Origin: Ensifer adhaerens
Lineage (GTDB): Bacteria > Pseudomonadota > Alphaproteobacteria > Rhizobiales > Rhizobiaceae
Length of the DNA: 64,000 nt
Reading direction: 5' to 3'
NCBI RefSeq assembly: GCF_028993555.1
Contig: NZ_CP118611.1
Location: forward strand, 62,001-126,000
Made by a program: the position numbers and the translations under genes. Positions 9,329-47,419 of the stretch are shown piece by piece. The notes beneath the pieces were generated by a model. It saw only the letters and a program-made list of their open reading frames with translations. It did not search any database and had not been told where the DNA came from. Position 1 is the stretch's first letter. Each line of letters opens with the position of its first letter.

Positions 9329-9333
9329 GCGAC

Positions 9334-10098: not shown

Positions 10099-10133
10099 TG
10101 CCCCATCCAGCAACCGTCACAGGAGGGCGCGCC

Positions 10134-11595: not shown

Positions 11596-11622
11596 CCGAT
11601 TGGCCGTCGGAGGCAATGGCCT

Positions 11623-12158: not shown

Positions 12159-12164
12159 TTGCTG

Positions 12165-12182
12165 TTATTATCGATAGAATAA
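12165..12182. promoter_or_regulatory. AT-rich dyad upstream of first SfnB-like gene
   Basis: TTATTATCGATAGAATAA is an imperfect palindrome centred on ATCGAT, 36 bases before the ATG at 12219. Its complement contains TATTCTAT, which also appears at 16301-16308 upstream of the second SfnB-like gene. It may be a shared operator or promoter element. Confidence 0.35.
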
Positions 12183-12218
12183 ATGCACTATTTCGCCTCC
12201 ACCAATGGAGAGAGGCGG

Positions 12219-13451
12219 ATGAGCAACGTACATTTCCTCAGGGAACAGACACCGGCCGGCACCAGCGCCGAACAGGATGAAAAGCGGCGGGAGCTGTTTG
12301 CCCGCGCGGAGGCGCTGTCCCAGGACCTCGCCCGCCGCGGCGCCGAGCTCGACCGTGCCGGCGCGCCGCCGCGGGAAGAGATCGAGGCTCTCCGCCAGGC
12401 CGGCCTGCTGACGGCGCTGCATTCACCCGAGGTTGGCGGTGCGGGCCTGAGCTGGGTCGACGGGCTGCGGCTGGTGCGTATCATTGCGCGCGGCGAGAGC
12501 TCGATTGGCCAATTGCTTGGCTACCACTACGTCAACAGCCAGTATGTTTACTGGGCCGCTGCCGATCCCAAACAGGCCTGGGTGCTCGGGGCGGAGACCG
12601 TCGAGCGTCAGCTTTATTGGGGTGCTGCGGTCAACCCGCGCGATCCCGGCCTCACATTGGAGCGGCGTGGCGGTCACTATGTGCTGAACGGCCGCAAGAC
12701 GTTTTCGACCGGCGCCCATGTCTCTGACCGCATCAACGTCAACGCTGCGCTCGAGGGCAAGATCGCCAACTTCGTCGTGCCCACCGATCGGCCGGGTTAC
12801 ATCACCAACGACGACTGGGACAATATCGGCCAGCGCCTGTCCGACAGCGGCAGCGTCGAATTCCGCGATTTCCCGGTCTACGAGCGTGATTTCATTCTGC
12901 CACTTGCCGACCCCGCCGATCCGCCTTCGGTGCAGGCGACGTTCAACACGCCACTGATCCAGCTCGTCTTCGTCAACTTCTACCTCGGCACGGCCGAAGG
13001 TGCACTTGCATCGGCTCTCGACTACGTGCGCACGACGACACGTCCCTGGGTCACTTCAGGCGTCGCGAGCGCCAATGAGGACCCCCACATTCTCGAACGC
13101 ATCGGAGACCTTCAGGCTGCGTTGAAGGCGTCGGTGGCACTCGCCGATGTGGCGGCGGCATCCGTGGAAGCAGCTTTGACGCGGGGCCGATCAGTGACGC
13201 CGGAGGCGCGTGGCGCAGCCGCGATCGAGGCCTATGCCGCCAAGGTTCATTCGACCCATGTCTCGCTAGACGTGACGGCGAAGGTCTTCGAACTGATGGG
13301 CGCACGCGCCACGGCGGGGCACTATCGCTTCGACCGCTACTGGCGCAATGTCCGTACCCACACGCTGCACGATCCCGTCGCTTACAAGGCGCGCGAGGTC
13401 GGCGACTTCGTGCTGAACGGGCGGATACCGCCAGTAAGCCTTTATAGCTGA
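12219..13451 (+). CDS. SfnB-family sulfur acquisition flavoprotein (acyl-CoA dehydrogenase fold)
   Basis: A 410-residue acyl-CoA-dehydrogenase-fold flavoprotein closest in style to SfnB/DszC-type FMNH2-dependent monooxygenases, which oxidise organosulfur compounds such as sulfones for sulfur scavenging. The ATG at 12219 follows GGAGAGAGG. Visible landmarks are EIEALRQAGLLTALHSPEVGGAGLSW, the substrate-loop region ARGESSIGQLLGYHY, and the C-terminal MGARATAGHYRFDRYWRNVRTHTLHDPVAYK, characteristic of this subfamily. It converges on a flavin monooxygenase gene with a shared terminator between them. The exact sulfur substrate cannot be read from sequence. Confidence 0.87.
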   Translation: MSNVHFLREQTPAGTSAEQDEKRRELFARAEALSQDLARRGAELDRAGAPPREEIEALRQAGLLTALHSPEVGGAGLSWVDGLRLVRIIARGESSIGQLLGYHYVNSQYVYWAAADPKQAWVLGAETVERQLYWGAAVNPRDPGLTLERRGGHYVLNGRKTFSTGAHVSDRINVNAALEGKIANFVVPTDRPGYITNDDWDNIGQRLSDSGSVEFRDFPVYERDFILPLADPADPPSVQATFNTPLIQLVFVNFYLGTAEGALASALDYVRTTTRPWVTSGVASANEDPHILERIGDLQAALKASVALADVAAASVEAALTRGRSVTPEARGAAAIEAYAAKVHSTHVSLDVTAKVFELMGARATAGHYRFDRYWRNVRTHTLHDPVAYKAREVGDFVLNGRIPPVSLYS

Positions 13452-13490
13452 ACCCAATCCCGGAGCCGCGATCGCCTTTGCCTGAAAGAT

Positions 13491-13523
13491 AAATGCCGCC
13501 TGGACCAGGTCCCGGCGGCATTT
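13491..13523. terminator. bidirectional terminator between convergent genes
   Basis: Perfect 10-base inverted repeat AAATGCCGCC / GGCGGCATTT separated by 13 bases. It lies between the convergent ends at 13451 and 13540. A-rich and T-rich flanks on the two sides make it usable in both directions. Confidence 0.8.
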
Positions 13524-13539
13524 CTTGGATGCTTAAGCC

Positions 13540-14937
13540 TTAGGCGGAAGCTGCGATCGCTTGCCGTTGTCCCAAGAGGTCGCGATAGCCAGCCCCCGGA
13601 TGCGGCGCCGCAAGCCTCGGCCCGGCGGCAAACAGCTTTTCCCTAAGCGTGCCCTGGCGATAATCGGTCTTGTAGACGCCGCGCTTCTGCAGTTCCGGTA
13701 TCAGCAGGTCGACGGCATCCTCGAAGGTCTCGGGCGTCACCGCATAGGCGAGGTTGAAGCCGTCGACATCCGTATCCTCGACCCACTCCTGCATCAGGTC
13801 GGCAACCGTCGATGGCGAGCCGACGAAGACCGGCCCGAAACCCCCGATGCCCACCCAGTCGGCCATCTCGCGTACAGTCCACACACGATCCTGATCGATT
13901 GTCGTGAAGGTTTCGACGGCGGATTGTACCGCATTGGTGTGGCGGTGGCGCAGCGGTTCGTCCGGTGCGAACTGGCCAAAGTCGATGCCAGTCCAGCCGG
14001 AGATCAGCGCCAGAGCGCCTTCGTAGGAGACGTGCTTGCGGTACTCGTCGAACTTCCTTTTCGCCTCGGCATCGGTTTCGCCGAGGATCACCGTCTGCAG
14101 ATTGAAGGCGAGGATTTCGCGCGGGTTGCGGCCGGCGCGCTCTGCCGCCTCCCGGACGTTGGCGACATAGCGTTTCAATACGGTCTTGGACGGCGCGGCG
14201 ACGAAGATGCATTCGGCGTGCTGGCCGGCAAAGTCCTTGCCTCTGCTCGAAGAGCCCGCCTGGTAGAGCACAGGCGTGCGCTGCGCCGAAGGCTCGCTCA
14301 GATGGATGCCCGGGACCGTGAAATGATGGCCGCGATGGTTGATCGGGTGCACCTTGTCGGGATGGGTGAAGATGCCGGTTGCCCGGTCACGGACGACCGC
14401 GCCGTCTTCCCAGCTGCCTTCCCACAGCTTGTAGCAGACCTCGAGATACTCCTCTGCGAGATCATACCGGTCGTCGTGACGCGCCTGCTGCGCCTGGCCA
14501 ACATTAAGCGCGCCGCTGTTGAGGTAGGAGGTGACGATGTTCCAGCCGATGCGCCCCTTGGTCAGATGATCGAGTGTCGAGATGCGTCGCGCGAAGGTAT
14601 AGGGATGCTCGAAGGAAAGCGAGGCGGTCAGGCCGAAACCCAGGTGCTCGGTTTCGTAGGCCATCGTCGGCACCAGTTGTAGGGGGTCGTTGACCGGAAC
14701 CTGGGCCGAATGGCGAAGGGCCGCGTCTGCGTTGCCGTTCAGCACGTCGTAGACGCCGAGCACATCGGCGATGAACAGGCCGTCGAACTTGCCGCGCTCG
14801 AGCGTTTTTGCCAGATGTACCCAGTAGTCGAGCTCCTTGTAGCGCCAGGACTGGTCTCGCGGATGGGTCCAGAGGCCCGGCGACTGATGGCCGACGCAGT
14901 TCATGTCAAAGGCATTCAGCCGGATTTCGCGGCTCAT
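13540..14937 (-). CDS. FMN-dependent monooxygenase, NtaA/SnaA/DszA family
   Basis: A 465-residue bacterial-luciferase-fold monooxygenase. The GAAGGAGAAGCC just before the ATG at 14937 supports the start. Family landmarks are TLERGKFDGLFIADVLGVYDVL, the long insertion typical of the NtaA/SnaA/SoxA(DszA) branch, GRIGWNIVTSYLNSGALN, and GSSSRGKDFAGQHAECIFV, where phosphate of FMN is usually bound. Enzymes of this branch use FMNH2 from a separate reductase to open dibenzothiophene sulfone, nitrilotriacetate or dimethyl sulfide type substrates. Its position between two SfnB-like genes supports an organosulfur role. No flavin reductase gene is seen nearby. Confidence 0.88.
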   Translation of the reverse strand: MSREIRLNAFDMNCVGHQSPGLWTHPRDQSWRYKELDYWVHLAKTLERGKFDGLFIADVLGVYDVLNGNADAALRHSAQVPVNDPLQLVPTMAYETEHLGFGLTASLSFEHPYTFARRISTLDHLTKGRIGWNIVTSYLNSGALNVGQAQQARHDDRYDLAEEYLEVCYKLWEGSWEDGAVVRDRATGIFTHPDKVHPINHRGHHFTVPGIHLSEPSAQRTPVLYQAGSSSRGKDFAGQHAECIFVAAPSKTVLKRYVANVREAAERAGRNPREILAFNLQTVILGETDAEAKRKFDEYRKHVSYEGALALISGWTGIDFGQFAPDEPLRHRHTNAVQSAVETFTTIDQDRVWTVREMADWVGIGGFGPVFVGSPSTVADLMQEWVEDTDVDGFNLAYAVTPETFEDAVDLLIPELQKRGVYKTDYRQGTLREKLFAAGPRLAAPHPGAGYRDLLGQRQAIAASA

Positions 14938-15016
14938 GGGCTTCTCCTTCGGGCAAGGTTGGGGAATGCCCGAAGCTGCGGTTACGCTCCGGGGCGTTCG
15001 TGCGCGGTCGGTGGGA

Positions 15017-16234
15017 TCAAAGCGCGCCGTTCTTCGGCGGCTTGACGCCGTTCAGGTGATAGTTGCCGACGACGTGATGCTTCCATCGCACCGGGTCGTG
15101 CAGGGTGTGAGTGCGGGCGTTGCGCCAGTGCCGGTCGAGGTTGAGTCCAATCTTCGTCGAAGCGGTTCCGGCGAGCTCGAAGAGCGTGTTGCTGGCTTCC
15201 AAGGCGATCTCGGTTGTCAGAGCCTTCGCTGCGGCAACGGCAAGCGTTGCCTCGACGACGCTTTCCTCGGTGCCGTTGATCTGGGCGACATCGACCTTCT
15301 TGCCCGCCCGTTCGACGGTTGCGGTCGCCGCCTCCAGGCGGATGGCGAGTTGACCGATGCGGGCGATGGTCAGCGGATCATCGGCAGCGCGCTCGACGCC
15401 GCTGTCCATCCACGGCCGCGCATGATCGCGTACGAAATTGAGGGTTTCGGCAAAGGCAGCGCGGGCAATGCCGAGATCGATGCCGGCATGGATGATCTGG
15501 CCGACGGAGCCGATCGTCGTCGGGCGCTCGAAGCCGCGATGATGGCGTACCACCGCATCGGCCGTGACATAGACATTCTGCAGCACGGTCGTACCGCTGC
15601 CGGTCGTGCGCTGGCCGAAGCCGTCCCAGTCGTCGATGATCTGCAAGCCTTCGGCGCCACGCGGCAAGAACGACATGGTCAGCTTGTCGTTCGGATCAAG
15701 CGCGAAGACTACGATCCATTCTGCAAACAGCACGCCGGTCGAATAATACTTGCGCCCGTTCAGCCGGAAACCGGGTCCATCGGGCGTCAACCGCGTCGCA
15801 TAATCGCCGACGGTCTTCGTGCCGCGTTCGGAAAGCGCGTTGCCGAAACGGTCGCCGGCAAGCGCACGGCCGAAGAAGAAGGCCTTCTGCTCTTCGGTGC
15901 CGTCGGTGCGCAGCGCTTCCAGAATGTAGAAGTGGTTTTGCGGGATCTGGCCGATCGAGGAGTCCGCTTCCGAGAGGATGGCTGTGATCTCGGCGAGGAC
16001 CGCATTGGAGACGTCGATGCCGTCATATTCCGGCGGCACGGTGATCGCGAGCAGGCCGGACTGAGCCAGCGCATCGAGTTCGTCGAAGGGCAGGATGCGA
16101 TCCGTATCCCGCTCATTGGCACTCCTCGCGAATTCCGCGGCCAGTTCGCGGGCGATCGACAGCGCTTCCTCCTCGCTCTCGATCCGGTGCGCCGGGGCTC
16201 GTGTTTTCTCGGAAAGCCGCGAGATCGTTCCCAT
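15017..16234 (-). CDS. SfnB-family sulfur acquisition flavoprotein, second copy
   Basis: A 405-residue paralogue of the gene at 12219, again with an acyl-CoA dehydrogenase fold. AGGGAGC precedes the ATG at 16234. Visible signatures are LDALAQSGLLAITVPPEYDGIDVSN, EADSSIGQIPQNHFYILE, LNGRKYYSTGVLFAEWIVVFAL and the C-terminal NLDRHWRNARTHTLHDPVRWK. It lies 79 bases upstream of the monooxygenase gene on the same strand, so the two are probably one transcript. The two SfnB-like proteins differ clearly in sequence and may handle different sulfur compounds or successive oxidations. Confidence 0.87.
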   Translation of the reverse strand: MGTISRLSEKTRAPAHRIESEEEALSIARELAAEFARSANERDTDRILPFDELDALAQSGLLAITVPPEYDGIDVSNAVLAEITAILSEADSSIGQIPQNHFYILEALRTDGTEEQKAFFFGRALAGDRFGNALSERGTKTVGDYATRLTPDGPGFRLNGRKYYSTGVLFAEWIVVFALDPNDKLTMSFLPRGAEGLQIIDDWDGFGQRTTGSGTTVLQNVYVTADAVVRHHRGFERPTTIGSVGQIIHAGIDLGIARAAFAETLNFVRDHARPWMDSGVERAADDPLTIARIGQLAIRLEAATATVERAGKKVDVAQINGTEESVVEATLAVAAAKALTTEIALEASNTLFELAGTASTKIGLNLDRHWRNARTHTLHDPVRWKHHVVGNYHLNGVKPPKNGAL

Positions 16235-16629
16235 GTGACTGCTCCCTGTCGATTGAGGTGCATATCAGTGAATTATCTGGCAGAGCCGGGTAAGATAGTA
16301 TATTCTATAGAAATTATCGATTTGAGATTTTCGTTTCTACCGCGATGGCGGCCCGGTGTTTACCTTCGGGGCTGGATCGTTAATATCGAGTCGGGGGGAG
16401 ACCGTGGAACAACACCTTGGTCGAGGCACGCGACGCGTATGCGTGCCGATTTCCCGCCAAAATTGACTGCGGCTCAGGGAACTATCACCCGATTTGCGCA
16501 TTGCGTCATCGCCTGCAGTTTAACCAGTCGCGTGGCCACAGAGTATCGGCCACCCGGCACGAACACAAATACATGCTGACAGAATTGGCCATTCGCGTTT
16601 CCCGGCCTTGAACACTGAAGGAGACACAA
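16235..16629. promoter_or_regulatory. intergenic region with dyads
   Basis: About 400 non-coding bases between the divergent SfnB-like gene and the 128-residue unknown gene. It holds TTCTATAGAA, a perfect palindrome at 16303-16312, and GTGGCC-N10-GGCCAC at 16532-16553. The first lies in the promoter region of the SfnB-like gene and resembles the AT-rich dyad at 12165-12182. No gene is visible. Confidence 0.35.
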
Positions 16630-17016
16630 ATGACGAATTTCCTGCCTGCTCTACATGAAGGGCACGCCTCCATCACGCTGCAGAACCTGTTTCGCGATGC
16701 TCTGGAAGCCTATGACGACTGGGGCGCAAATTTGCCCGAGCCGCTCGTTGCGTTCGAAGGCAAGCTGATTGCAATCAGCGATGTTTTCGAATGGATGAAA
16801 CCTTGTACCGACATCATGCCGACGAACCTTATCGGCATCGTCACGGACCGGCTGAACAAGCCTTGGAAGGGTGAAGGTCCACTCGATGCGATGACCGTCT
16901 CCACCGCGGCACGCGTGATGGCCGTTCTGACGCGGCGACAGCTGCGCAGCTTCGGTCGTGGCTCGATCGAGGTCTTTGCCGAGCGCTTCAACCATCCGGT
17001 ACGCGCCAACGCCTGA
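16630..17016 (+). CDS. conserved-looking hypothetical protein
   Basis: A 128-residue soluble protein with a good AAGGAGA site just before its ATG. It has mixed helical composition with an internal LPEPLVAFEGKLIAISDVFEWMK segment and ends in RRQLRSFGRGSIEVFAERFNH. I find no signal peptide, membrane helix or catalytic motif and do not recognise the family. Normal codon use and a strong ribosome site suggest a real gene. It stands alone between the sulfur genes and a LysR regulator. Confidence 0.65.
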   Translation: MTNFLPALHEGHASITLQNLFRDALEAYDDWGANLPEPLVAFEGKLIAISDVFEWMKPCTDIMPTNLIGIVTDRLNKPWKGEGPLDAMTVSTAARVMAVLTRRQLRSFGRGSIEVFAERFNHPVRANA

Positions 17017-17147
17017 TCGGTGATCCCTGAGGGGCGCGTTCGCGCGCTCCTCGACAATGAAGACTCGCTCGGCGATCGATTTTGCCACGCGCCGTGTCGC
17101 ACCCCTTTCTTGCCGCATCGCCTTCCCGTAAACACGGGAGCTAGCGG

Positions 17148-18074
17148 ATGTTCGAACGGACCGGGGGCAGCGTGAATTTTCGACAATTGGAAGTGCTGCG
17201 CACGCTTCTTGCGACCGGATCGACAATCGCTGCCGCCAAGACCATGGGCCTCAGCCAGTCCGGCGTCAGCCGGTTGTTGCAGCAGCTCGAGGAAGACCTG
17301 TCGCTGACGCTCTTTGCGCGCGACAAGGGCCGGTTGATACCGACGCCTGAGGCGATGAAGCTTGCCGAGGATGCGGAGCATATCTTGCTTGGCATCGACC
17401 GTTTCACCAATCTGGCGCAGGACCTGCGCAGCGGCGCCGTCGGCCCTGAGGTCGTGCGCATCGGTCTACCGAACAGCATGTCCGAAACCTTCGCGCCGGC
17501 GATGCTTGCCGACTATGCCAAGGATTTTCCGGGTGTGCGGATCGAGACCTTCTTCGATACGACCGTGGCGATCGCCCGCCTGGTCGAACAGCGCATCATC
17601 GACTTCGGCTTCTTGCGGTACGAGGGGCAGCTCAGCGCCAGCATCGAAATGCAGCCGGTCGCGACTGGCGTCAGCGTCTGTGTGATGGAAAAGGGACATG
17701 CCCTCTCAAGCCTCGAAACTGTCACGCCCAAGGAATTGCGCGGCGTCCCGCTGATCCTGATCGGCCGCCGCCGGCCGACGCGGGTCATGCTCGACGAGAT
17801 CTTCCGCAAGGCCGGCGTGCCGCAAAAGGTCAAGATCGAGACCCACAGCAACAGTTCGGCCTGTGCCTATGCGGCCTATGGCCTCGGCGTTGCCGTCATC
17901 AGCAGTTTCTTCGCCAACCTGCATCGCCATCTGCCGATCGAGATCCGGCCATTTTCTCCGCACCTGACCCAGGATTTCGGCGTTGCAACTGCGTCCGGTG
18001 TTCCCTTGTCGCTTGCGGCCCAGGCGATGATCGATTGCCTGAAGCGTCAGGTCGCCGCCGTCCATGACCTCTAG
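17148..18074 (+). CDS. LysR-family transcriptional regulator
   Basis: A 308-residue LysR-type regulator. The helix-turn-helix is at about residues 18-40 of the frame (LLATGSTIAAAKTMGLSQSGVSRLL), followed by the co-inducer domain. An in-frame GTG at 17172 could also start the protein (NFRQLEVLR is the conserved N-terminus), but GGGAGCTAGCGG suits the ATG at 17148. It precedes the peptide-type ABC operon in the same direction with 233 bases between, in which a clear dyad occurs. It is the likely regulator of that operon. Confidence 0.92.
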   Translation: MFERTGGSVNFRQLEVLRTLLATGSTIAAAKTMGLSQSGVSRLLQQLEEDLSLTLFARDKGRLIPTPEAMKLAEDAEHILLGIDRFTNLAQDLRSGAVGPEVVRIGLPNSMSETFAPAMLADYAKDFPGVRIETFFDTTVAIARLVEQRIIDFGFLRYEGQLSASIEMQPVATGVSVCVMEKGHALSSLETVTPKELRGVPLILIGRRRPTRVMLDEIFRKAGVPQKVKIETHSNSSACAYAAYGLGVAVISSFFANLHRHLPIEIRPFSPHLTQDFGVATASGVPLSLAAQAMIDCLKRQVAAVHDL

Positions 18075-36700: not shown

Positions 36701-37045
36701 ATGGCAGAACGTCATCTCCGCACGCCCATCATGCATCGCGTCGTCGAACACAACGGCGTCGTCTATGTCGGCGGCACGACCTGCGACGACGAAAGCCTCG
36801 ACATGGCCGGTCAAACGCGCGAGATTTTGGCCAGGATCGATCGCTATCTCGCGGAAGCTGGGACCGACAAGACGAAGCTCCTGACGGCCACGATCTTTGT
36901 TACCGACCTCGGCAAGAAGCCGGACATGGATGCAGTGTGGAAGGCTTGGGCTGGCCCGGAAGATCTGCCGACCCGCGCAACCGTGGGCGTTGCCGATCTC
37001 GGTGGAGATACGCTGATCGAAGTGGTCGTTTCAGCGTTCAAGTAG
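36701..37045 (+). CDS. RidA-family enamine/imine deaminase
   Basis: A 114-residue YjgF/RidA-type protein with AGGAAGGAAATAAA before the ATG. The typical core is seen in NGVVYVGGTTCDDESLDMAGQTREILARIDRYLAEAG and the C-terminal LPTRATVGVADLGGDTLIEVVVSAF, including the conserved Arg that contacts the imine substrate carboxylate. RidA proteins hydrolyse reactive enamines and imines. Placed directly after a C-N oxidising dehydrogenase, it probably clears the imine made by that enzyme. Confidence 0.93.
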   Translation: MAERHLRTPIMHRVVEHNGVVYVGGTTCDDESLDMAGQTREILARIDRYLAEAGTDKTKLLTATIFVTDLGKKPDMDAVWKAWAGPEDLPTRATVGVADLGGDTLIEVVVSAFK

Positions 37046-38072
37046 AATACACGCGCATGGCATCACGTACGCCATGCGAAACCCCTTCAGAGGCAGTCGA
37101 CTTCGGCTTTTACTTCGAAGCGCAACCCATTAAGGACGAGATAGCGCAAGGAGGCGCGGCGGCCACGAAATTAAGACCTTTGCGCGCGGCATATGGAACT
37201 GACGTCCCACAGCGGAACCGTTGGCACACGCTTGGTTTTTTAGAGAACTCCTTGGTTCCCGATTGCGTGGCTGTTCTCGCACTCTCAGAGCGGTCACGCG
37301 TCAGTGTGTCCGTCCGTGGTGATGGCGCTTCACCGTCCCGTTAGAACCGGAACCCCGGCGTGTAGTGCATTTACCTGTGCGGGCCGCAGGCGCTTCCAGG
37401 CTATTCGAGCGACGCCTGCCGAGACCCTTCGCTGTTTCCGTTGAGATAGACAGGCTCGCCGATCGGGGTCGCAGCGATAGTCTTGATCTGTTGGGCCAGA
37501 GCCGCAAGCTTTTGCGCAAGGTGTTGGAGTTCGGCCGGGGAGTTCGTGCCCCCGGGGGTATCTTCGACGCTATATTCGTGCACGTGCTCGTCCTTTTTTC
37601 CACCGGACTTGGGTGATCAGTATATTCCCAACGCTGAATATAAGGCTACAACTCTGCGCGCGCTTTTTGTCGCTTTCGCGCAACCCCGACAAACGACACC
37701 CGCATGATCGATAGCGAGCCGCAACCCGCTCTTCGATCACGACGCAGGCCCCATCATCTTTCGCAGCTTGGGCGAGAATTTATCGAGTGTCGCCATAGCG
37801 GAGCATTCCAGCCGGTGTAGGACTTCAGCGAGTGTAGTCAGTCCTCGACCGCATGCAGGAAGGTAAACGCCGCAGAGATCTCGTTCAAAATCTTGTAAAG
37901 CAAAAGCATTATGTTTTCCTTGGTCTGCCGTCGTCCGTTAAAGTCCCGGATATAATATTATTTTATTCTAATGACGCCTTGAAACGAGTGGATAAGGGTG
38001 TATTCTCGTTAAAATAGCGATCAGCATTTAGTCAGATCTGGTTCCCGATTTCCGAGTAATGGGGGAAGCACT
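37046..38072. other. 1-kb low-coding region
   Basis: About one kilobase with no solid gene except a possible 60-residue protein on the minus strand. The last 150 bases are AT-rich and probably hold the promoter of the transporter at 38073, whose ribosome site is GGGGAAG. No regulator gene for the decarboxylase block is visible here. Confidence 0.45.
37401..37583 (-). CDS. possible small protein
   Basis: A 60-residue frame with GTG start and AAAAAAGGACG upstream. The sequence has a plausible amphipathic helix (PAELQHLAQKLAALAQQIKTIAA) after a polar N-terminus, and normal composition rather than the Arg/Ser/Pro-rich look of shadow frames. I do not recognise it. Moderate chance of being real. 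Confidence 0.35.
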   Translation of the reverse strand: MHEYSVEDTPGGTNSPAELQHLAQKLAALAQQIKTIAATPIGEPVYLNGNSEGSRQASLE

Positions 38073-39764
38073 ATGGTTGACTGGTTCGTAAACACGCTTC
38101 GCACTTATCCTGAAATTGCAATATTTCTCTCATTGGCGCTTGGATATTACTTCGGATCGTTCACCTACAAAGGCCTCGGCCTCGGTGCGGTGACAGCGAC
38201 GCTGATTGCTGCCGTCATCATCGGCCAGCTCGGGATCACCATTTCACCACCGCTCAAGGCCACGTTCTTTCTGATGTTCCTGTTTGCGATCGGCTACGGC
38301 GTCGGGCCGCAGTTCGTTCGGGGCATCGCGAAGGATGGCCTTCCGCAGGCGTTGTTCGCTGCGGTTGTGTGCGTCTTTTGCCTCGGAGCGCCCTACATCG
38401 CTGCCAAGATAGCCGGTTACGACGTGGGATCCGCACTGGGGCTTTATGCAGGTTCGCAGACCATCTCAGCGTCAATGGGCCTGGGAACGGATGCCATCAA
38501 TCGACTTGGACTGGCGCCGGAAGAAACCAAACGTCTTCTGGACGCCATGCCCGTCGCCTATGCCGTCACCTATATTTTCGGCACGATCGGATCGGCGATT
38601 GTGCTGGCGTTGATCGGTCCTGCGCTCATGCGTATCGACCTGGAGGCGGAATGCAAACGCTACGAGGCGGAGCAAGGTGGCAAGAAGGAAGCGGGGGGCG
38701 CTGGAACCGCCTGGCACCACTACGAGCTGCGCGCCTATCGCGTCCGCGAGGGCGGGCCAGTCGTCGGCAAGACCGCACGCGAAGCCGAATCGATGATCCC
38801 TGAGCAGCGGATTTTCATCGAGCGTATTCGTCGCGGGGGAAAGATCGAGGATGCCACGGCAGACACGGTGATCCAGGCAGGCGACGTCGTTGCTGTGGCC
38901 GGTCGGCGCGAAGTGCTGGTAAGCGTGATCGGTCAAGCGGCAGAGGAAGTCGACGACCGCGAGTTGCTGGCCGTGCCGGTCGAAGGCGTCGATGTGCTTG
39001 TCACGACCAAGGAGGCGAACGGCAAGACGCTGGCGGAGCTGGCACAATGGCCGACGTCCCGTGGTGTATTCCTGCGCCGGATCGCCCGTGGCGCCACGGC
39101 GACGGAAATTCCGATCCTTCCGAACACGCAGATCCATCGCGGCGATATCCTGACAATCGTCGGGCGAACGCAGGACACGGCGGCTGCCGCCAAAGCACTG
39201 GGTGTGGCCGACCGCCCGAGCGACGTTGCCGACGTTGCCTTCATCGGTGCTGCAATTGCCATCGGCGGCTTGATCGGTGCGCTCGTCTACAAGGTCGGCG
39301 ATGTGCCGTTTACGTTGTCCACCTCAGGGGGAGCGTTGATCTCCGGGCTCTTCTTCGGCTGGCTGCGCTCCGTGCGGCCGAAATTCGGGCGCATACCGAC
39401 CTCGACGGTCTGGTTCATGAATTCGGTCGGCCTCAACGTGTTCATTGCCGTGGTTGGCATATCATCGGGCCCGGGTTTTGTTGCCGGCCTGCAGCAGCTT
39501 GGTTTCAGCCTGTTCCTTTGGGGGATTTTCGCAACGACGGTGCCATTGGTGCTGGCAATGTATGTCGGGAAATACGTGTTCCGGTTTCATCCCGCCATTC
39601 TCCTGGGATGCTGCTCCGGCGCACGTACGACGACTGCCTCGTTGGGCATGATCAACGATCGGGCCAAGAGCCAGATCCCTGGGCTCGGCTACACCGTGAC
39701 TTATGCCGTCGGCAATACCCTGCTGACGATCTGGGGCATGGTGCTTGTGATGATGATGACCTAG
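38073..39764 (+). CDS. AspT-family precursor/product exchanger, copy 1
   Basis: A 563-residue inner-membrane transporter of the aspartate:alanine exchanger (AspT/YidE/YbjL) family. Two blocks of about five helices flank a central cytoplasmic region with two RCK_C (TrkA_C) domains ([40 protein letters not shown]). The duplicated family motif appears as [14 protein letters not shown] in the first half. Such exchangers swap an amino acid for its decarboxylation product, and the decarboxylase gene follows 242 bases downstream. It is the same length as the second copy at 42951 but clearly different in sequence. Confidence 0.9.
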
Positions 39765-39773
39765 AGCATCTCC

Positions 39774-39798
39774 AGGAAGAACGCTTGGCGTCCTTCCT
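39774..39798 (+). terminator. stem-loop after the first AspT-like gene
   Basis: Near-perfect inverted repeat AGGAAGAACGC / GCGTCCTTCCT ten bases past the stop, followed by AAATAATG without a T-run. It may attenuate transcription into the decarboxylase gene or protect the upstream message. Confidence 0.45.
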
Positions 39799-40006
39799 AA
39801 ATAATGCATGTAAAAACAGATAGTTAGTCTCTACGGCACCATTTCAATCGGAAACGCCGCGGCGGCCGGTTTCGCGGCGTTGCGGATCTTTCCACGGATG
39901 CAATGCCGAGCGCGGTTTTCGCAATTTGAATTGTCGCTGCCTCAGAGCCGGAACCGCGGACTGGTGGCAGCGGACAGGCCTTTCGGAACAGCATTGGGAG
40001 CGTGTT

Positions 40007-42733
40007 ATGCCGAACAAGACCGCACATGTTGATCAGTTTCTGCTTATCCATTCGGGCCGTGCAGACAATTGGCGCGAGATCACGACACTCGCGGATGCCT
40101 GGGCCGCCAAGCGTGGCGAGCGGGCAGCGCTGGAGGCGGCCATCGCCGCGGCAAGGGCGGCCGAGGAGTACCACGCCTATCCGGGGGGGCGATTGCTTTC
40201 GGCACTGGCAGAGCGGATCGCCACCGATGATGCCGTTGGAGCAGCAAAGCTTGCGCGACGAATCTCCAACGGGTTGCTCACCCATTCCTATCGAGGCCGC
40301 CCGGGCGAGTGGGACGTCCACGACGAGATGTCGGCGACCGAGGTGACCGACATCATGCCGCCCGGAACCGGTGAGGCGGGCGGGCGCCGGCCCTATTTCG
40401 AAGTTCTGTTCGTCAACAGCCAGCCGGCCGCCCGATGGGACGCCTTCGCAACCGAGATCCGCAGGTTGCGCCGGCCGGAGGATGGGTTCATCTACGAGCC
40501 CGTTTTGGTCGGTTCGTTCGAGGATGCCTTCTGCGCAGCTGCAATGAACCCCGACATCATAGCCGTCGTCCTCGCGGAAGGATTCCCGTACCGCTCGCGC
40601 CACGACGCGCCGGTGCTTCGCTCGGTGCTTGATCCGCTCGGAGAAACCGAGGGGCCGGACATGTCGGCGCTTCGCCTGGCGCGCGGATTGAAGCGTATCC
40701 GGCCGGAGCTCGACGTCTATTTGCTCTCCGACCGTCAGGTCGAGAAGATTGCCGGCGATCCGACAGCCGATGCCATCAGGCGCGTGTTCTACGCGGTTGA
40801 GGAACCACTGGAACTGCATCTCGCCATCCTTGAGGGAGTGCAGGAACGCTACGAAACCCCCTTCTTCGACAACCTGAAGAAATATGCGCGCAGGCCGATC
40901 GGTACATTTCATGCCTTGCCCATCGCCCGCGGCAAATCCGTCTTCAAGTCGGACTGGATCCGCGACATGGGGGAATTCTACGGGCTCAACCTGTTCCTCG
41001 CGGAAAGCAGCGCGACGACCGGTGGCCTCGATAGCCTGTTGGAGCCAACCGGAACCATCAAGCGGTCCCAGGAATTGGCCGCCCGTGCCTTTGGCGCAGA
41101 CCACGTCTTCTTCGTGACCAACGGTACGTCCACCTCCAACAAGATGGCCGTGCAAGCGCTTCTGGCGCCAGGCGACATCGCGGTGGTCGACCGCAACTGC
41201 CATAAGTCCCACCACTACGGCATGGTGTTGACGGGTGCTCAACCCTACTACGTCGAAGCGTTCCCGATGACGGAATATTCGATGTATGGCGCCGTGCCGC
41301 TTGCAACGATCAAGCGCGCGCTGCTGGCGCTGAAGGCTGAAGGTCGCCTCGAACGTTTGAAGCTGCTTGACCTTACCAACTGCACTTTCGACGGCCATAT
41401 GTACAATGTCAGGCGGGTGATGGAGGAATGCCTCGCCATCAAACCCGACCTCATCTTTCTCTGGGACGAAGCGTGGTCGGGATTTGCCCGGTTTTCGCCC
41501 TTCCTGCGTCCGCGCACGGCCATGGGGGCGGCGGCCGATATCGAAGACTGGCTGCACGATCCGGCCTCGATCGACGCCTATGAAAAGCAGCGCGCCGACC
41601 TTGGCAAGAACCCCTCCGACGAAGCGCTGCTTGCCGCTCGCCTGATCCCAGATCCGCGTCTTGTCCGCCTTCGGGTCTACCAGACCAACTCCACGCATAA
41701 ATCCATGTCAGCAATCCGTCAGGGATCCATGCTGCTGGTCAAGGATGTGGATTTTCACAATGTCGAGGCTCAGTTCCACGAGGCGGTTTTCACCCATGCC
41801 TCGACCAGCCCGAACCAGCAGCTGATCGCCAGTCTCGATGTTGCACGCAGGCAGATGGAACTCGACGGCTATGGGCTGGTGATGAACGCGATCGAGATCG
41901 CGCTGAAGATCCGCCGGGCGGTCAACGAGCACCCGCTGATCTCGAAATACTTCCGCGTCCTTGGCGCCGATCAGATGATCCCGGCGCAGTATCGCCAGTC
42001 AGGGTTTAAGGACTACCTGGCGCCCGGCTCTACTTGGGCCACGGCGGTCAAGGCGATGAAGGAGGATGAGTTCTATCTTGATCCTACGCGCATGACCCTG
42101 GTGTGCGGAACGGCTGGTTTCGACGGGACGCAGTTCAAGGGGCTGCTGGCGAACGAGTATGATATCCAGCTGAACAAGACGTCGCGCAACAGTGTGTTGC
42201 TGCAATCCAACATCAACAATACCCGCAGCGATATTGCACACCTCGTTCGCGTGCTGGTGGAGATCTGCAATGGTATCGAAGAGCGGCTCGCCGACGGCGG
42301 AGAGGGCGAGCGTGCTGCTTTTGCCGCGCGCGTGAAGTCGCTGATGACGGATGTGCCCGACCTTCCCAACTTCAGTCACTTCCATGAGGTGTACCGCGGC
42401 GATGCGGGCCGGACGACGCCGGAGGGCGATATGCGTGCCGCCTTCTTCCACGCCTATGACGCGTCTGTTTGCGAATACGTGCCGCTGATCGGAGCCGAGT
42501 GCGACAAGAGGCTGAAGGAAGGTCCGGAAATGGTCTCGGCCAACTTCGTCATTCCCTATCCTCCCGGGTTCCCGATCATGGTGCCGGGTCAGGTGCTGAC
42601 GCAGGAGACGATCGACTTCATGCGCAAACTGGATGTGAAAGAGATCCATGGCTACGAGAAGGCGCGCGGACTGAAGCTGGTCAAGCCCGATGCAGTTGCG
42701 GCCAAGGCGAAGCGTCAGTCAAAAGCACGGTAG
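40007..42733 (+). CDS. PLP-dependent Orn/Lys/Arg-type decarboxylase, long form
   Basis: A 908-residue fold-type I decarboxylase of the Orn/Lys/Arg group. GGGAG before the ATG at 40007 fixes the start. A wing domain (about residues 120-270) precedes the PLP domain with AESSATTGGLDSLLEPTG, FFVTNGTSTSNKMAVQALL, the aspartate in FLWDEAWSGFA and the cofactor lysine at about residue 565 in TNSTHKSMSAIRQGS. The C-terminal domain has the family segment FVIPYPPGFPIMVPGQ. In E. coli AdiA the lysine is 386, so roughly 180 extra residues lie N-terminal. Decarboxylation consumes a cytoplasmic proton. The substrate (Arg, Lys, Orn or other) is not fixed by sequence. Confidence 0.92.
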   Translation: MPNKTAHVDQFLLIHSGRADNWREITTLADAWAAKRGERAALEAAIAAARAAEEYHAYPGGRLLSALAERIATDDAVGAAKLARRISNGLLTHSYRGRPGEWDVHDEMSATEVTDIMPPGTGEAGGRRPYFEVLFVNSQPAARWDAFATEIRRLRRPEDGFIYEPVLVGSFEDAFCAAAMNPDIIAVVLAEGFPYRSRHDAPVLRSVLDPLGETEGPDMSALRLARGLKRIRPELDVYLLSDRQVEKIAGDPTADAIRRVFYAVEEPLELHLAILEGVQERYETPFFDNLKKYARRPIGTFHALPIARGKSVFKSDWIRDMGEFYGLNLFLAESSATTGGLDSLLEPTGTIKRSQELAARAFGADHVFFVTNGTSTSNKMAVQALLAPGDIAVVDRNCHKSHHYGMVLTGAQPYYVEAFPMTEYSMYGAVPLATIKRALLALKAEGRLERLKLLDLTNCTFDGHMYNVRRVMEECLAIKPDLIFLWDEAWSGFARFSPFLRPRTAMGAAADIEDWLHDPASIDAYEKQRADLGKNPSDEALLAARLIPDPRLVRLRVYQTNSTHKSMSAIRQGSMLLVKDVDFHNVEAQFHEAVFTHASTSPNQQLIASLDVARRQMELDGYGLVMNAIEIALKIRRAVNEHPLISKYFRVLGADQMIPAQYRQSGFKDYLAPGSTWATAVKAMKEDEFYLDPTRMTLVCGTAGFDGTQFKGLLANEYDIQLNKTSRNSVLLQSNINNTRSDIAHLVRVLVEICNGIEERLADGGEGERAAFAARVKSLMTDVPDLPNFSHFHEVYRGDAGRTTPEGDMRAAFFHAYDASVCEYVPLIGAECDKRLKEGPEMVSANFVIPYPPGFPIMVPGQVLTQETIDFMRKLDVKEIHGYEKARGLKLVKPDAVAAKAKRQSKAR

Positions 42734-42950
42734 CGTCGGAATGCGGCGACGCTCGATTGTTTTTGCGTGGCTATCCGCATGGCGATCTGGCGCTTTCTGG
42801 GGAGTGGTGCTGCCGGAGCGAATTGGCGTGGTGACTGACACCCCGTTGGTCGCCGCGGTTCGCGACGACGTACCGATTTTGCATGACGGTTTGGGGATGG
42901 CAGCGAACGAGTGATGGCTTCGGATCGGGGGCGAGGGGGCTAGTCTGGAC

Positions 42951-44642
42951 ATGATTTGGGTCGAGCAATTCCTGAACAGGTATCCCGAGCTTGCCGTATT
43001 CCTGGCTATCAGCATCGGATATCTGATCGGCGGCCTCAAATTCGGTGGCTTCAGCCTCGGGCCGGTCACCGGCTCGCTATTTGCTGGCATCTTGATCGGC
43101 CAGTTCGCCGATGTCCCGATTGCCGGCATGGCAAAATCGTTCCTGTTCCTGTTGTTCCTCTTCGGTATCGGCTACTCGGTCGGGCCACAATTCTTGCAGG
43201 CATTGAAGCGGGACGGAATGAAACCCGTACTGCTCGCGGTCGTCGTCTGTGTCACCGGGCTGCTCATGTCCGTCGTCGTTGCCAAACTCCTCGGACTGGA
43301 TCCCGGTTTTGCGGCCGGGCTTCTTTCCGGCTCTCTCACCGAAAGCCCAGCGATGGGCACGGCAACGGAAGCGATCAATGCGCTACCGCTCCCCGAGGCA
43401 GATCGCGCACGGTTCGTAGCGCACATCGCTGTGGCTGACGCTGTCTGCTACGTCTTCGGCGCGGTTGGCGTCATTCTCTTCTGTAGCGTCGTCGGGCCCC
43501 GGCTGCTTGGCATCGATCTTGTTGCCGAAGCGCTGAAGCTGGAGAAGGAGTATGGCATTACCCGCAAGGCGGCTGGTGTCTCCTCCGCATGGCACAGGTT
43601 CGAGATTCGCGCCTACCAGATCGCCGATGGCGCACCAGTCGCCGGCCTGTCGATAGCCAATGCCGAGGCGACGTTTCCGGAACACCGACTCTTCATTCAG
43701 CGTCTGCGCCGCGGCGGCACGATCATCGAGGCGGCTCCGGATATCGTGATCGAGCCCGGTGATATAGTGGCTGTCTCCGGGACGAGGGAAGCGTTGGTAA
43801 GTGTCCTTGGGCCGCGCGCCGAAGAGATCGAGGACCGCGAACTGCTCGATGTCCCGGTATCGATCTGCGATGTGCTGCTGACGAGCCCTGATCTCAAGGG
43901 TCGAAGCATCGCCGATGTCGCCAAGGAAAGCTGGACCCGTAGCCTTTATCTGCGCGCCATTACGCGTGGGAGCCAGGATATTCCGATAGCGCCAGGGATC
44001 ACGGTCGAACGCGGCGATATCCTGCGCCTCGTGGGGCCGGAGGCCGTTGTTTCGAGCGCCGCCAAGCGCATTGGCGTCGTGGTCGCGCCGCCGGCGGCGA
44101 CCGACTTCTTGGTGCTCGGCCTTGCAATTTTCCTTGGCGGGCTTGTCGGTGTTCTCGTCACGTTTCCCATCGGCGACATGCGGATTTCCCTCAGCACCAG
44201 CGTGGGCACGCTGCTCGCCGGGTTGGTCGTTGGGCATCTGCGTACGCGCTTCCCACTCTTCGGCCGAATACCGGATGCCGCGGTATCACTCATGACGTCG
44301 CTTGGTCTTGCCGCCTTTGTCGCGATGACCGGTCTTCATGCCGGACCGGTGTTTGCCTCGGCAATCGCCGAGGCAGGGATCGGGCTGCTCTTCGGCGGCA
44401 TGATCGTCACCACGGTTCCCATGATTGTTGGCCTGTACTTCGGGCGCTACGTGCTTGGAATGAACCCCATCTTGCTACTGGGCGGGCTCGCCGGGGCGCA
44501 GACGATGACAGCCGGCATGGCAGCCGTTCAGGACAGGTCCGGGAGCACCGTTGCGGTCCTCGGCTACACGCCCGCGGTCCCCATCGGCCACATCCTGCTG
44601 ACGACCTGGGGAACTGTGATCGTCGGTATAATCGCAGGATGA
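42951..44642 (+). CDS. AspT-family precursor/product exchanger, copy 2
   Basis: A second 563-residue AspT-family exchanger, 217 bases after the decarboxylase. Motif FLFGIGYSVGPQF corresponds to the one in copy 1, the two central RCK_C domains start at WHRFEIRAYQIADGAPVAG and ICDVLLTSPDLKG, and GLAGAQTMTAGMAAVQD lies near the C-terminus. By eye the two copies are about 40 percent alike in the first helices. It may pair with copy 1 as a heteromer or move a different precursor/product pair. Confidence 0.9.
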   Translation: MIWVEQFLNRYPELAVFLAISIGYLIGGLKFGGFSLGPVTGSLFAGILIGQFADVPIAGMAKSFLFLLFLFGIGYSVGPQFLQALKRDGMKPVLLAVVVCVTGLLMSVVVAKLLGLDPGFAAGLLSGSLTESPAMGTATEAINALPLPEADRARFVAHIAVADAVCYVFGAVGVILFCSVVGPRLLGIDLVAEALKLEKEYGITRKAAGVSSAWHRFEIRAYQIADGAPVAGLSIANAEATFPEHRLFIQRLRRGGTIIEAAPDIVIEPGDIVAVSGTREALVSVLGPRAEEIEDRELLDVPVSICDVLLTSPDLKGRSIADVAKESWTRSLYLRAITRGSQDIPIAPGITVERGDILRLVGPEAVVSSAAKRIGVVVAPPAATDFLVLGLAIFLGGLVGVLVTFPIGDMRISLSTSVGTLLAGLVVGHLRTRFPLFGRIPDAAVSLMTSLGLAAFVAMTGLHAGPVFASAIAEAGIGLLFGGMIVTTVPMIVGLYFGRYVLGMNPILLLGGLAGAQTMTAGMAAVQDRSGSTVAVLGYTPAVPIGHILLTTWGTVIVGIIAG

Positions 44643-44776
44643 AAAGGTGCAGGTCCCATCAAGCGGCGGCAAAAGTTCTGCGCGGTTAGATTTAGCAACA
44701 GACTTATACAGTAAAAAGGAAAATACTGACTGCGATTCGACGATGCCAGCCGACAGTGACCTGAAAGGTGCTTTAG

Positions 44777-45958
44777 ATGCGACAGACACCATACATCGCT
44801 CCGCCCGTGCTCTTCATCGCCGCACTGGCCGCCGCCGGGTCAGTGGCGGCGCAGGAACCGTCAAAACCTGCGACGCAGAATACTGAGACGAGCAAGGCGC
44901 AAGAGCATTGGATCCCCAAGCTGCGGGTCGGCGACGACAATGCCTATTTCGAATTCTACGGTCAGATCAACAAGGGCCTGCTGGTCTACGATGATGGCGG
45001 GACAACGGAGAATTACTTTCCGGTCGACAACGGTAACTCGTCCTCGCGTGCGGGCTTTCGCATCTACACGCTCATGGAAAAAGGCTGGTCGTCCGGCGCC
45101 AATCTCGAATGGGAATGGAACCCCTACTCGACAACCAACGTGAACCAGTTGAACGAGGATCACTTCGATTGGGGAACCGACCTGCTGCGCAAGGCGGAAA
45201 TCTATCTCGAATCGAAGGACTATGGCAAATTCTGGTTCGGCCAGGGCAGCATGGCCTCGGATACGACGGCCGAGGTCGACCTGTCTGGAACAAGCGTGGT
45301 CGGCTATTCGCTTGTTTCCGATATGGCCGGTGGACCGTTTTTCCGCAACGATGACGGGACATTGTCAACGGTCAAAGTCAAGGACGCGTTCACCAACTAT
45401 GACGGCCTCAGCCGAAAGCTCCGCGTCCGCTACGACACCCCTTCATTCGGCGGGTTCAGTTTTGCGACGTCGGTCGGCACGCAGGTCGTCCCGGAAGAAA
45501 CCGACGTCACCGTTTGGGACATGGCGGTTCGTTATGACGAGACCTACGATGCCTTCAAGGTCGGTGCCGCAATTGCCTTTTCGAGGCCAGGTGACGGCAA
45601 CTCGATTTACGACGCGTCCGTTTCCGTTCTGCATCTCGATACCGGTCTCAGCCTCACCCTCGCAGCGGCCTATTCCGACAAGGAGACGGTCGATGGGCAC
45701 TATGGCTACGTGAAGGTCGGCTATCAGGCCGATATTTTCGACGTCGGCAAGACAGCATTTTCCGTTGATGCCTATTTCGGCAAGGACATTGCGGGAAGGG
45801 GCAGCAAAAGCGATTCCTTTGGGGCGCAGGTTGTCCAGAACCTCGACTATCTGCAGACGGAACTCTACCTTGGGGCCCGGACCTACTCCTTAGATCAGGA
45901 AACCGCCGATCTCCAGGACAGCTTTGCTGTTCTTGGCGGCGCCAGAATAAAGTTCTGA
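44777..45958 (+). CDS. outer-membrane porin
   Basis: A 393-residue beta-barrel porin. A Sec signal peptide (cleavage near SVAAQ/EP) is followed by alternating amphipathic strands such as DNAYFEFYGQINKGLLVYD, SSRAGFRIYTLMEKG, AEIYLESKDYGKFWFGQGSM and the terminal strand FAVLGGARIKF ending in the aromatic residue recognised by the Bam machinery. An AAAGGTG site precedes the ATG. It lies 134 bases after the second AspT-like gene in the same direction, so it may supply outer-membrane passage for the decarboxylase system's substrate or product. Confidence 0.88.
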   Translation: MRQTPYIAPPVLFIAALAAAGSVAAQEPSKPATQNTETSKAQEHWIPKLRVGDDNAYFEFYGQINKGLLVYDDGGTTENYFPVDNGNSSSRAGFRIYTLMEKGWSSGANLEWEWNPYSTTNVNQLNEDHFDWGTDLLRKAEIYLESKDYGKFWFGQGSMASDTTAEVDLSGTSVVGYSLVSDMAGGPFFRNDDGTLSTVKVKDAFTNYDGLSRKLRVRYDTPSFGGFSFATSVGTQVVPEETDVTVWDMAVRYDETYDAFKVGAAIAFSRPGDGNSIYDASVSVLHLDTGLSLTLAAAYSDKETVDGHYGYVKVGYQADIFDVGKTAFSVDAYFGKDIAGRGSKSDSFGAQVVQNLDYLQTELYLGARTYSLDQETADLQDSFAVLGGARIKF

Positions 45959-46335
45959 AGTAACTGGCTGGTGCTTGCCGGCGCCCCCGCCATGCGATCG
46001 TCGTGTGCGGGCGCGTCGTGCAGTCAGGATCGCATAAAGTATCGTTGGGAACCCTGAGCCCGGTGCTGTCGTCGCTCAGGCTCGCACGGCTTGGCTGGCT
46101 GATCGACGAAGTTTTTTCGTTCGATCGCGAGCGCCTGGCGAACTGGCGCCGTCGTCACCGCAATACCGGCTAGGGCCCTTGGGTGCCGTTCAGATCGTCA
46201 ACGGTTGCGATCTCGCCAGATTGAAGTTGCGTTTCGACAAAGAACGATTGGAAAAACTGCCCCAGCTTCTCCCTTGATCAACGGGCCAGAAACGGTCCCG
46301 CTTCAACATCGATTATAGGCGTCAAGGAGAGCACA
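45959..46335. other. intergenic region between porin and ric
   Basis: About 380 bases. A 51-codon plus-strand frame runs from GTG 46018 to TAG 46173 and ends in FDRERLANWRRRHRNTG; it has no family I know and may be a fragment. A TTGATCAA palindrome occurs at 46274-46281, without the spacer needed for an FNR site. AAGGAG at 46324-46329 serves the ric gene. Confidence 0.35.
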
Positions 46336-47034
46336 TTGGCCGAGTACGAATTGGACACCACCGTCGGAGTGATTGCGTGCGAGCTTCCCGGTGCTGCCGA
46401 ACTGTTCAGGCAGCACGGTATCGGATTTTGCTGTGGCGGCGACGTACCGCTTGCAGAAGCGGCTGCGGATGCCGGCATAGAGGCCGCTGATCTGCTTGCA
46501 CGGCTTCAGGCGCTGGAGCTTGCCGCAAGGCGCGACGCCCCGGATGGTACGGGCGAACTCATCGCTCACATTCTGGAACGTTATCACCAGACGCACCGTA
46601 CCGATCTGGAATGGTTGATCCCGCTTGCGCAAAAGGTGGAGCACGTCCACGGTGCGCATCACTCCGCGCCACTGGGTCTTGCAGACGCGCTGGTCGACCT
46701 CAAGGATCACCTTCTTCCCCACATGGCACGAGAAGAGCTCGCTCTCTTTCCGATGATGCGCCATGAGCCCGATCCGGATATCGAACATTTGATTGCCGGC
46801 ATGCGGGACGATCATGCATGCGAAAGCCGGAGCCTCGCCGTGATAGAGCATTTGACGCATGGATTTGCGCTTCCGGACGGTGCGTGCAGGTCCTGGACGG
46901 CGCTCTATGTCGGTGTCCAAAAATTCTGCGATGATCTCGTCACGCATATGCATCTGGAAAACAGCGTTCTGTTCCCGCGTTTCTCCGGCATTGATGCATC
47001 CGATGGCGCCGCTGTTGCGCGTTCGGTGGGGTGA
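46336..47034 (+). CDS. ric: iron-sulfur cluster repair di-iron protein (Ric/ScdA/YtfE)
   Basis: A 232-residue Ric/YtfE-type protein that repairs Fe-S clusters damaged by nitric oxide or oxidants. The N-terminal ScdA domain shows LFRQHGIGFCCGGDVPLAEAA with the CCGG motif. The hemerythrin-like domain carries the His/Glu di-iron ligands in RYHQTHRTD, HVHGAHHSAPLG, HLLPHMAREELALFP, DDHACE and HMHLENSVLFPRF. The start is a TTG at 46336 with AAGGAG seven bases before; no ATG or GTG fits the conserved N-terminus. Placement before nos genes fits protection during denitrification. Confidence 0.92.
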   Translation: MAEYELDTTVGVIACELPGAAELFRQHGIGFCCGGDVPLAEAAADAGIEAADLLARLQALELAARRDAPDGTGELIAHILERYHQTHRTDLEWLIPLAQKVEHVHGAHHSAPLGLADALVDLKDHLLPHMAREELALFPMMRHEPDPDIEHLIAGMRDDHACESRSLAVIEHLTHGFALPDGACRSWTALYVGVQKFCDDLVTHMHLENSVLFPRFSGIDASDGAAVARSVG

Positions 47035-47419
47035 GGCCCCGACAGATCTGTCCGGCATCGCTTTGCCCTACGGGAGGAAGCGGAGTTTCAGATAGATTTG
47101 CGCACGCAATCCGACCCGTCGCTCGGTGCTGGACACTCGTTCACGGTTCGAAGGTGGCGCCGCCGTGTCCTCACGAGGCGTGGCGGCGATCAATCTGCCC
47201 GCCACGAGCCGAGCCGATGGCAGAACTTTATCACACTCGCGCAAATGTTGTGGTCGACGGGCCCCAGCTATCCTCTGGCAGATATCGCGGAGAGGGCAGG
47301 CCATAGCCGACCCATCCGACTTTGAAGGTTTTGTTCTCGCGCCAGCCGGTTGACGGGATGACGCCAACCCTCCCCAGGTCCACCCGAAAATCACTGCGTG
47401 CATGAGTTGTTGTGTTTGT
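47035..47419. other. intergenic region before nosR
   Basis: About 385 bases with no supported gene. One minus-strand frame ends in QIYLKLRFLP, which looks like a beta-barrel C-terminus, but nothing upstream in that frame supports an outer-membrane protein. The interval ends at the FNR/NnrR-type box of nosR. Confidence 0.35.

Follow-up and report, generated by a model that had tools for sequence, protein, structure and literature searches.

A long Rv2531c-type decarboxylase paired with AspT-type exchangers in Ensifer adhaerens: a candidate decarboxylation/antiport module

What does a decarboxylase of the ornithine/lysine/arginine (OKR) fold do between two exchangers of the AspT family? The question is raised by a 64,000-nucleotide stretch of Ensifer adhaerens DNA (NZ_CP118611.1, positions 62,001 to 126,000; hereafter the window), which lies on contig C2 (2.78 Mb) of a 7.77-Mb genome in four contigs. 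Known partnerships run otherwise: AspT goes with aspartate 4-decarboxylase (AspD), and OKR decarboxylases go with antiporters of the amino acid–polyamine–organocation (APC) type, such as AdiC, CadB and PotE. A first-pass annotation of the window had described four genes on one strand, encoding AspT (563 amino acids, aa), a decarboxylase (908 aa), AspT (563 aa) and a porin, and the open reading frames (ORFs) and protein families bear this description out:

aspT1, 38073..39764, forward strand: AspT exchanger of 563 aa, alpha clade (TIGR03802, 710.3 bits)
dec, 40007..42733, forward strand: long Rv2531c-type OKR decarboxylase of 908 aa (PF01276, 236.5 bits)
aspT2, 42951..44642, forward strand: AspT exchanger of 563 aa, beta clade (TIGR03802, 559.6 bits)
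porin, 44777..45958, forward strand: porin of 393 aa (Porin_4, PF13609, 68.6 bits)
conserved block, 37949..45960, forward strand: blastn match to E. adhaerens Lc04 (locus L004), 87.2% over 8060 aligned columns

The pairing of dec with AspT is real and is conserved across many genera. Our survey covers the 80 best of 279 loci; the counts are thus weighted toward close relatives, with more than a few loci drawn from single genera (e.g. Bradyrhizobium, Roseomonas). Neighbors were counted by tblastn with chosen queries at 35% coverage. (L219 was read from ORFs directly; L147, L148 and L241 are short contigs, and L166 is represented by its first annotated piece only.) An AspT gene lies within 500 bp of dec, on the same strand, in 70/80 loci. 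Linkage of a PF01276 decarboxylase to AspT-type exchangers, as first proposed, is therefore kept, and the result that the first-pass annotation had named as speaking against it, a neighborhood not conserved in related genomes, is not what we found. The dec–AspT neighborhood is kept across too many genera for a chance cluster, which we consider ruled out. Six of the loci in which AspT is missing are from Bradyrhizobium (L059, L061, L064, L074, L080, L082) and have a SulP gene directly upstream of dec, as do several Bradyrhizobium loci with AspT.

Whole genomes gave the same picture. Here we call decarboxylases A-type when at least 66% identical to the window protein (Dec) and B-type at 39–51%. 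Among 397 genomes of the order, 17 carry an A-type dec (70–100% identity); AspT (E <= 1e-80) is found in 17/17 of these versus 21/380 of the others, and each of the 17 has it no more than 3 kb from dec. Fisher tests gave p of about 1e-19 by genome and 2e-8 by genus (8/8 genera versus 11/134); the latter is the fairer figure, since eight of the 17 genomes come from one genus. None of the 11 genomes of the order with a B-type dec (49–51%) has AspT. In a tree, the AspT-linked Dec proteins form one supported clade of 34 rows, with three sampled AspT-less members nested within it. This and the AspT tree below were built by a quick method with Shimodaira–Hasegawa-like approximate likelihood ratio support (SH-aLRT) only, and long-branch warnings attach to the AspT gamma clade with YbjL and to L224/L225 with the classical enzymes.

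The pairing also extends beyond the window's class. In the order of genome G705 (same phylum, another class), 8/151 genomes have a Dec match. Five are B-type, at 48–49%, and three are A-type, namely G705 itself and two genomes at 79% (G1007) and 73% (G975) identity to it. All three A-type genomes have AspT and an OprD-type porin, arranged as dec – AspT gamma – OprD – AspT beta in L219 and L237 and as dec – AspT alpha – OprD in L238; the OprD call is Pfam-scored for L219 and made by similarity to L219 for the other two. An Eremiobacteria metagenome-assembled genome (L073), for which wrong binning is possible, carries the pair AspT – dec and, four genes upstream, aspD.

What belongs to the unit in E. 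adhaerens itself? With window positions 37000–47100 as blastn query, Lc04 gave a single run of 87% identity that begins and ends at 37949–45960, and hence the common block comprises the four genes, porin included. The porin is also within the common block of E. adhaerens L161. In L006 (Rhizobium) and L012 (Mycoplana) the DNA match stops past aspT2 and before the porin; in L005 it stops where the contig ends. By Pfam, the four genes of the block are AspT, Dec, AspT and porin, and no APC-type antiporter gene is found at 37949–45960. Gaps between the genes are, in order, 242, 217 and 134 bp. We place the dec start at ATG 40007, preceded by GGGAG; the mechanical ORF has 935 aa and begins at TTG 39926.

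Dec passes PF01276, the OKR decarboxylase major domain, with 236.5 bits against a cut-off of 27. Its residues H399, D487 and K565, which we take to be the stacking histidine, the cofactor-site aspartate and the lysine that binds pyridoxal 5'-phosphate (PLP), are invariant in 25/25 alignment rows. It reaches none of six NCBIfam models for Arg, Lys or Orn decarboxylases (best 167.5 bits, cut-offs 794–1310). In sequence and fold, Dec resembles Rv2531c over its full length, and Rv2531c is the nearest among solved structures. Judged on these comparisons, Dec is an enzyme of the Rv2531c kind and not of the AdiA, CadA or SpeF kinds. The family is large, with at least 8000 homologues at E <= 1e-30; in the available text of PMC12910592, the activity of Rv2531c is given as not clarified. 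Three short motifs of Dec stand out:

S562-T-H-K565 codons, 41690..41701, forward strand: PLP-binding lysine motif, aligned with STHK of CadA and invariant in 25/25 rows
R308-G309-K310 codons, 40928..40936, forward strand: in the alignment, replace the PGHxGG loop of AdiA, CadA and SpeF
Q721-L-N723-K-T-S-R727-N728 codons, 42167..42190, forward strand: N723 stands at the position of CadA Glu526

The predicted substrate pocket departs from that of the classical enzymes. For AdiA, 22 channel residues were listed from tunnel prediction, of which five acidic ones might attract arginine, according to the accessible part of PMC11186044. Summed charge at these positions in the alignment is –3 for AdiA, –3 for CadA, –4 for SpeF, –3 for an ornithine decarboxylase (ODC)-like enzyme of the same genome and 0 for Dec, in which three of the 22 are gaps. 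Across the 109 long decarboxylases used for pocket counts (86 A-type, 2 intermediate, 21 B-type), the mean is 0.0 for A-type and –0.33 for B-type. Glu526 of LdcI/CadA, proposed to bind lysine from docking and an earlier proposal (PMC5607190, as far as its accessible text goes), corresponds to Asn (N723 in Dec) in 86/86 A-type, 2/2 intermediate and 21/21 B-type sequences, and the position of CadA Glu104 is Tyr in 86/86 A-type. The ODC-like enzyme, which is separate from Dec, retains the Glu. Around N723, the Q, N, K, T, R and N of Q721–N728 occur in 86/86 A-type, 2/2 intermediate and 21/21 B-type, and the motif Q-x-N-K-T-S-R-N is fixed across A-type sequences. The PGHxGG loop position reads LPIARGK in Dec, with R308 invariant in 25/25 rows and K310 present in 90% or more. 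At the positions of Arg308, Lys310 and Arg727 the classical enzymes shown have other residues, and Rv2531c (PDB 9n0n, 9n0o, 9n0p) has Ile at that of Arg727. As predicted from sequence, the pocket speaks against an ordinary decarboxylase of Arg, Lys or Orn. It would be compatible with an acidic side chain, without proving one.

Both exchangers match PF06826 (271.8 bits for AspT1 and 234.8 for AspT2) and exceed the TIGR03802 cut-off of 546.95, AspT2 only just; they are 44% identical to each other. The AspT tree started from 150 stop-free hits longer than 1450 bp together with YbjL, reduced to 89 rows. Its gamma clade stands beside dec only (15/15 rows). The beta clade, which holds AspT2, has 26 rows: 22 dec-labelled, three farther off and one aspD-labelled, the last from a dec – AspT – aspD – AspT cluster. 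The alpha clade, which holds AspT1, has members linked to dec, to aspD, to both and to neither, and alpha-like AspT is the only kind beside dec in some loci (Methylobacterium, L063, L158). Beta and gamma thus appear specialized for dec, and alpha would be a more general, AspD-like exchanger. Arg76 of AspT is named in a title cited by PMC9508256, as far as the accessible part of that article shows. Position 76 was tried and rejected as a partner marker: 18 AspD-labelled sequences show G, R, S, E or Q there, and 105 dec-labelled sequences mostly show G, S or R.

The same genome offers a direct comparison for AspT1. It has 13 matches to TIGR03801, none of them in the window, which rules out a misread plain AspD system; two exceed the cut-off, on contigs C1 and C3. 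The C1 cluster is ordered AspT – AspD – AspT, and the C3 aspD is 99% identical to that of C1. On C3, 2.8 kb from aspD and on the opposite strand, lies an aspT whose product is identical to window AspT1 at all 563 residues. The DNA match spans 38055–39981 at 97.9%, covering most of the aspT1–dec spacer, and each of the 22 differences within the gene falls on a third codon position, leaving every residue unchanged. AspT1 thus occurs in identical form in two settings, close to aspD on C3 and next to dec in the window. This supports an exchanger that can work in an aspartate system, although linkage by itself demonstrates no function. The C3 locus (L140, 7682–13838), which has DUF2950 and DUF3300 genes between aspD and aspT, is a mosaic of genes found on two other contigs.

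Neighboring genes add clues to an acidic substrate. Besides the common alpha exchanger, aspD is frequent near dec (within 3 kb in 15/80 loci, within 10 kb in 26/80). GltS-like genes, which resemble Na+/glutamate symporters and so speak for glutamate, lie within 3 kb in 7/80 and within 10 kb in 8/80, in Roseomonas kin, a Hyphomicrobiales metagenome-assembled genome, Aestuariivirga and Mesorhizobium; the L042 copy is only 34% like the query, which was taken from L033, matches PF03616 and falls just short of TIGR00210 (297.6 versus a cut-off of 310.75). In Phyllobacterium, a dehydrogenase annotated as succinate-semialdehyde dehydrogenase (SSADH) and a class III aminotransferase stand divergently beside dec-aspT-porin. 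Queries for gamma-aminobutyric acid (GABA) transaminase and SSADH gave no match within 10 kb among the 80 loci. Bearing on acid stress, Rhizobium sp. T1473 has the order carbonic anhydrase ... dec-aspT-aspD ... HdeA. The GadB neighbor query gave no match, and GadC only a 30% match, in an AspD locus. An aspartate decarboxylase gene of Zymomonas that shares its operon with an AspT-like gene goes up under acetate, according to the available text of PMC4189746.

These observations led us to propose that the block is a decarboxylation/antiport module with glutamate or aspartate as substrate, a reading of Dec, AspT and porin together in which we place moderate confidence. An AspT-type exchanger would import an amino acid carrying an additional negative charge, most likely glutamate and next aspartate. 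Dec, a cytoplasmic PLP enzyme, would strip the alpha-carboxylate and consume a proton; GABA or beta-alanine, as the more neutral product, would exit in exchange. Such an exchange would be electrogenic; the cycle would thereby increase internal pH and contribute to the proton-motive force, in the manner of AspD/AspT acting on aspartate and alanine. AspT2, of the beta clade, would probably be the dedicated partner of Dec, and AspT1, of the alpha clade, the kind also used with AspD. The porin may pass substrate and product through the outer membrane. Coupling of decarboxylation with exchange is very probable. That the Dec substrate is acidic strikes us as an evenly balanced call, with glutamate to GABA favored and aspartate to beta-alanine next; a polyamine role is disfavored. 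The first-pass suggestion of a decarboxylation/antiport role for acid resistance or proton-motive energy fits this proposal.

The proposed module has close counterparts among known systems. The AspD/AspT proton-motive cycle of Tetragenococcus (PMC9508256, in its accessible part) likewise joins an AspT-family exchanger to a PLP amino-acid decarboxylase. The window block even copies the AspT–decarboxylase–AspT order of its own genome's C1 cluster, and differs in having the long OKR-type enzyme in place of AspD, two divergent exchangers and a porin. AdiA/AdiC, CadA/CadB and SpeF/PotE similarly set an exchanger gene beside an OKR-fold decarboxylase; here, however, the exchanger is AspT-type, and Dec lacks the channel charge and the amine-binding Glu. 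Were Dec to take glutamate, the block would work like GadB/GadC glutamate acid resistance, although the protein families differ, GadB belonging to PF00282 and GadC being a carrier of the APC type. A search by titles and abstract starts, outside which most subscription journals lay, found no paper on an OKR decarboxylase–AspT pairing among those listed.

Several observations weigh against this proposal. Ten of the 80 loci have no AspT within 3 kb (L010, L013, L059, L061, L064, L067, L074, L080, L081, L082). No activity or transport is known to us for any member. The characterized AspT exchanges aspartate and alanine, not glutamate. B-type Dec (39–51% identical) has the same pocket motif as A-type, and one B-type locus lies near arginase and an amine ATP-binding cassette transporter. 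Tunnel prediction underlies the channel list, docking and an earlier proposal underlie the Glu526 role, and the Dec structure model is of low confidence around residues 296–313. GltS-like genes occur in a tenth of loci or fewer; the Phyllobacterium dehydrogenase is below the SSADH cut-off (598.1 versus 646.35), and its aminotransferase matches a subfamily with no named substrate. The HdeA and carbonic anhydrase queries match only L162, from which they were taken, leaving one HdeA locus. The genome also encodes two PF00282 decarboxylases of unassigned substrate. As for the porin, the first-pass annotation had made it part of the set. It is inside the block shared with L004 and recurs elsewhere, but in a minority of loci: 19/80 within 3 kb and 27/80 within 10 kb, so that in most of the 80 no queried porin lies within 10 kb. 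The porin families that recur near dec differ (Porin_4, Porin_2, OprD), and this is a point for the pore having a role.

The B-type clusters themselves could represent a diamine-to-GABA route, which would also count against an acidic substrate. In 17 B-type loci, AspT was found nearby in 0/17, and the neighbors include CN-hydrolase (11), ATP-grasp (13), C45 acyltransferase (12) and GABA transaminase (7). Most of the set of CN-hydrolase, ATP-grasp ligase (PRK06524), C45 acyltransferase and GABA transaminase occurs in L143–L146, L150–L154, L157, L167, L220, L222, L223, L239 and L240 (about 44–51%). Because a diamine route would account equally well for the ligase, amidase and acyltransferase genes, we dropped these clusters as proof of a GABA product. 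We know of no described pathway for this kind of cluster, and no literature search aimed at such a pathway was made.

How do other explanations fare? Dec may instead act on a neutral or modified amino acid, with the exchangers carrying that substrate and its amine. The channel positions do total zero charge, the beta and gamma AspT clades are distinct from most AspD-linked ones, so that substrates may differ, and one gamma member scored 376.7 bits, under the TIGR03802 cut-off. The GltS-like and aspD neighbors and the common alpha exchanger point to acidic amino acids, however, and we regard a neutral substrate as rather unlikely.

The first-pass annotation had favored an Orn/Lys/Arg-type enzyme with polyamine export. 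This would require Dec to be an Arg, Orn or Lys decarboxylase and its AspT subfamilies to have shifted to exchange of basic amino acids or polyamines. We consider it unlikely, and this part of the annotation is not supported: no NCBIfam cut-off for such enzymes is reached, the nearest solved relative is Rv2531c, and the residues for a basic substrate are gone, in that the negative channel charge is lost and Glu526 and Glu104 of CadA have become Asn and Tyr. The genome, moreover, has the separate ODC-like enzyme with its Glu, and AspT1 is identical to the AspT near an aspD. Less likely still is a stress island of neighbors without joint work, in which both exchangers would act for AspD encoded elsewhere in the genome and Dec would do something unrelated: AspD copies on C1 and C3, the ten AspT-less loci, and PPK2, SulP, AI-2E, DUF3300 and DUF2950 genes within 10 kb in 25–35/80 loci each would suit it, but not the tight co-directional pairing in 70/80 loci, a gamma clade found beside dec only, or the recurrence of dec-AspT-porin-AspT outside the window's class.

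Some features around the block stand apart from these arguments. A RidA-like gene lies 1027 bp upstream of the block genes and the next gene downstream follows at 377 bp; directly downstream, beyond the conserved block, a RIC/YtfE-like iron-sulfur repair gene occupies 46336–47034 (TIGR03652, 205.0 versus 204.7 bits). The window has no tRNA and no Rfam match at gathering score. Promoter-like sites at 37040–46400 number 3 versus 3.0 in shuffles, and terminator-like sites 12 versus 8.5 (standard deviation 3.5). PPK2, AI-2E, DUF3300 and DUF2950 genes lie within 10 kb of dec in 25–27/80 loci each, for no clear reason. One of the genome's own PF00282 decarboxylases (L227, C2:1162001–1182000, 9148–17708) sits a few genes from SulP and PPK2, both frequent around related dec genes.

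More broadly, the Rv2531c-type branch of OKR enzymes may hold acidic-amino-acid decarboxylases. Its AspT-partnered part would then serve Glu- or Asp-dependent acid resistance or energy gain in Alphaproteobacteria and one or more other classes, with an OKR-fold enzyme replacing AspD or GadB and an AspT-type exchanger replacing GadC; we advance this generalization tentatively, as somewhat short of an even prospect. If true, the conserved crossing of OKR decarboxylase and AspT, with its own AspT clades, would be another decarboxylation/antiport cycle, present in soil and plant-associated bacteria. The dec–AspT set would also open a way into a large enzyme family; the activity of its solved member, Rv2531c, was not clarified according to the available text of PMC12910592.

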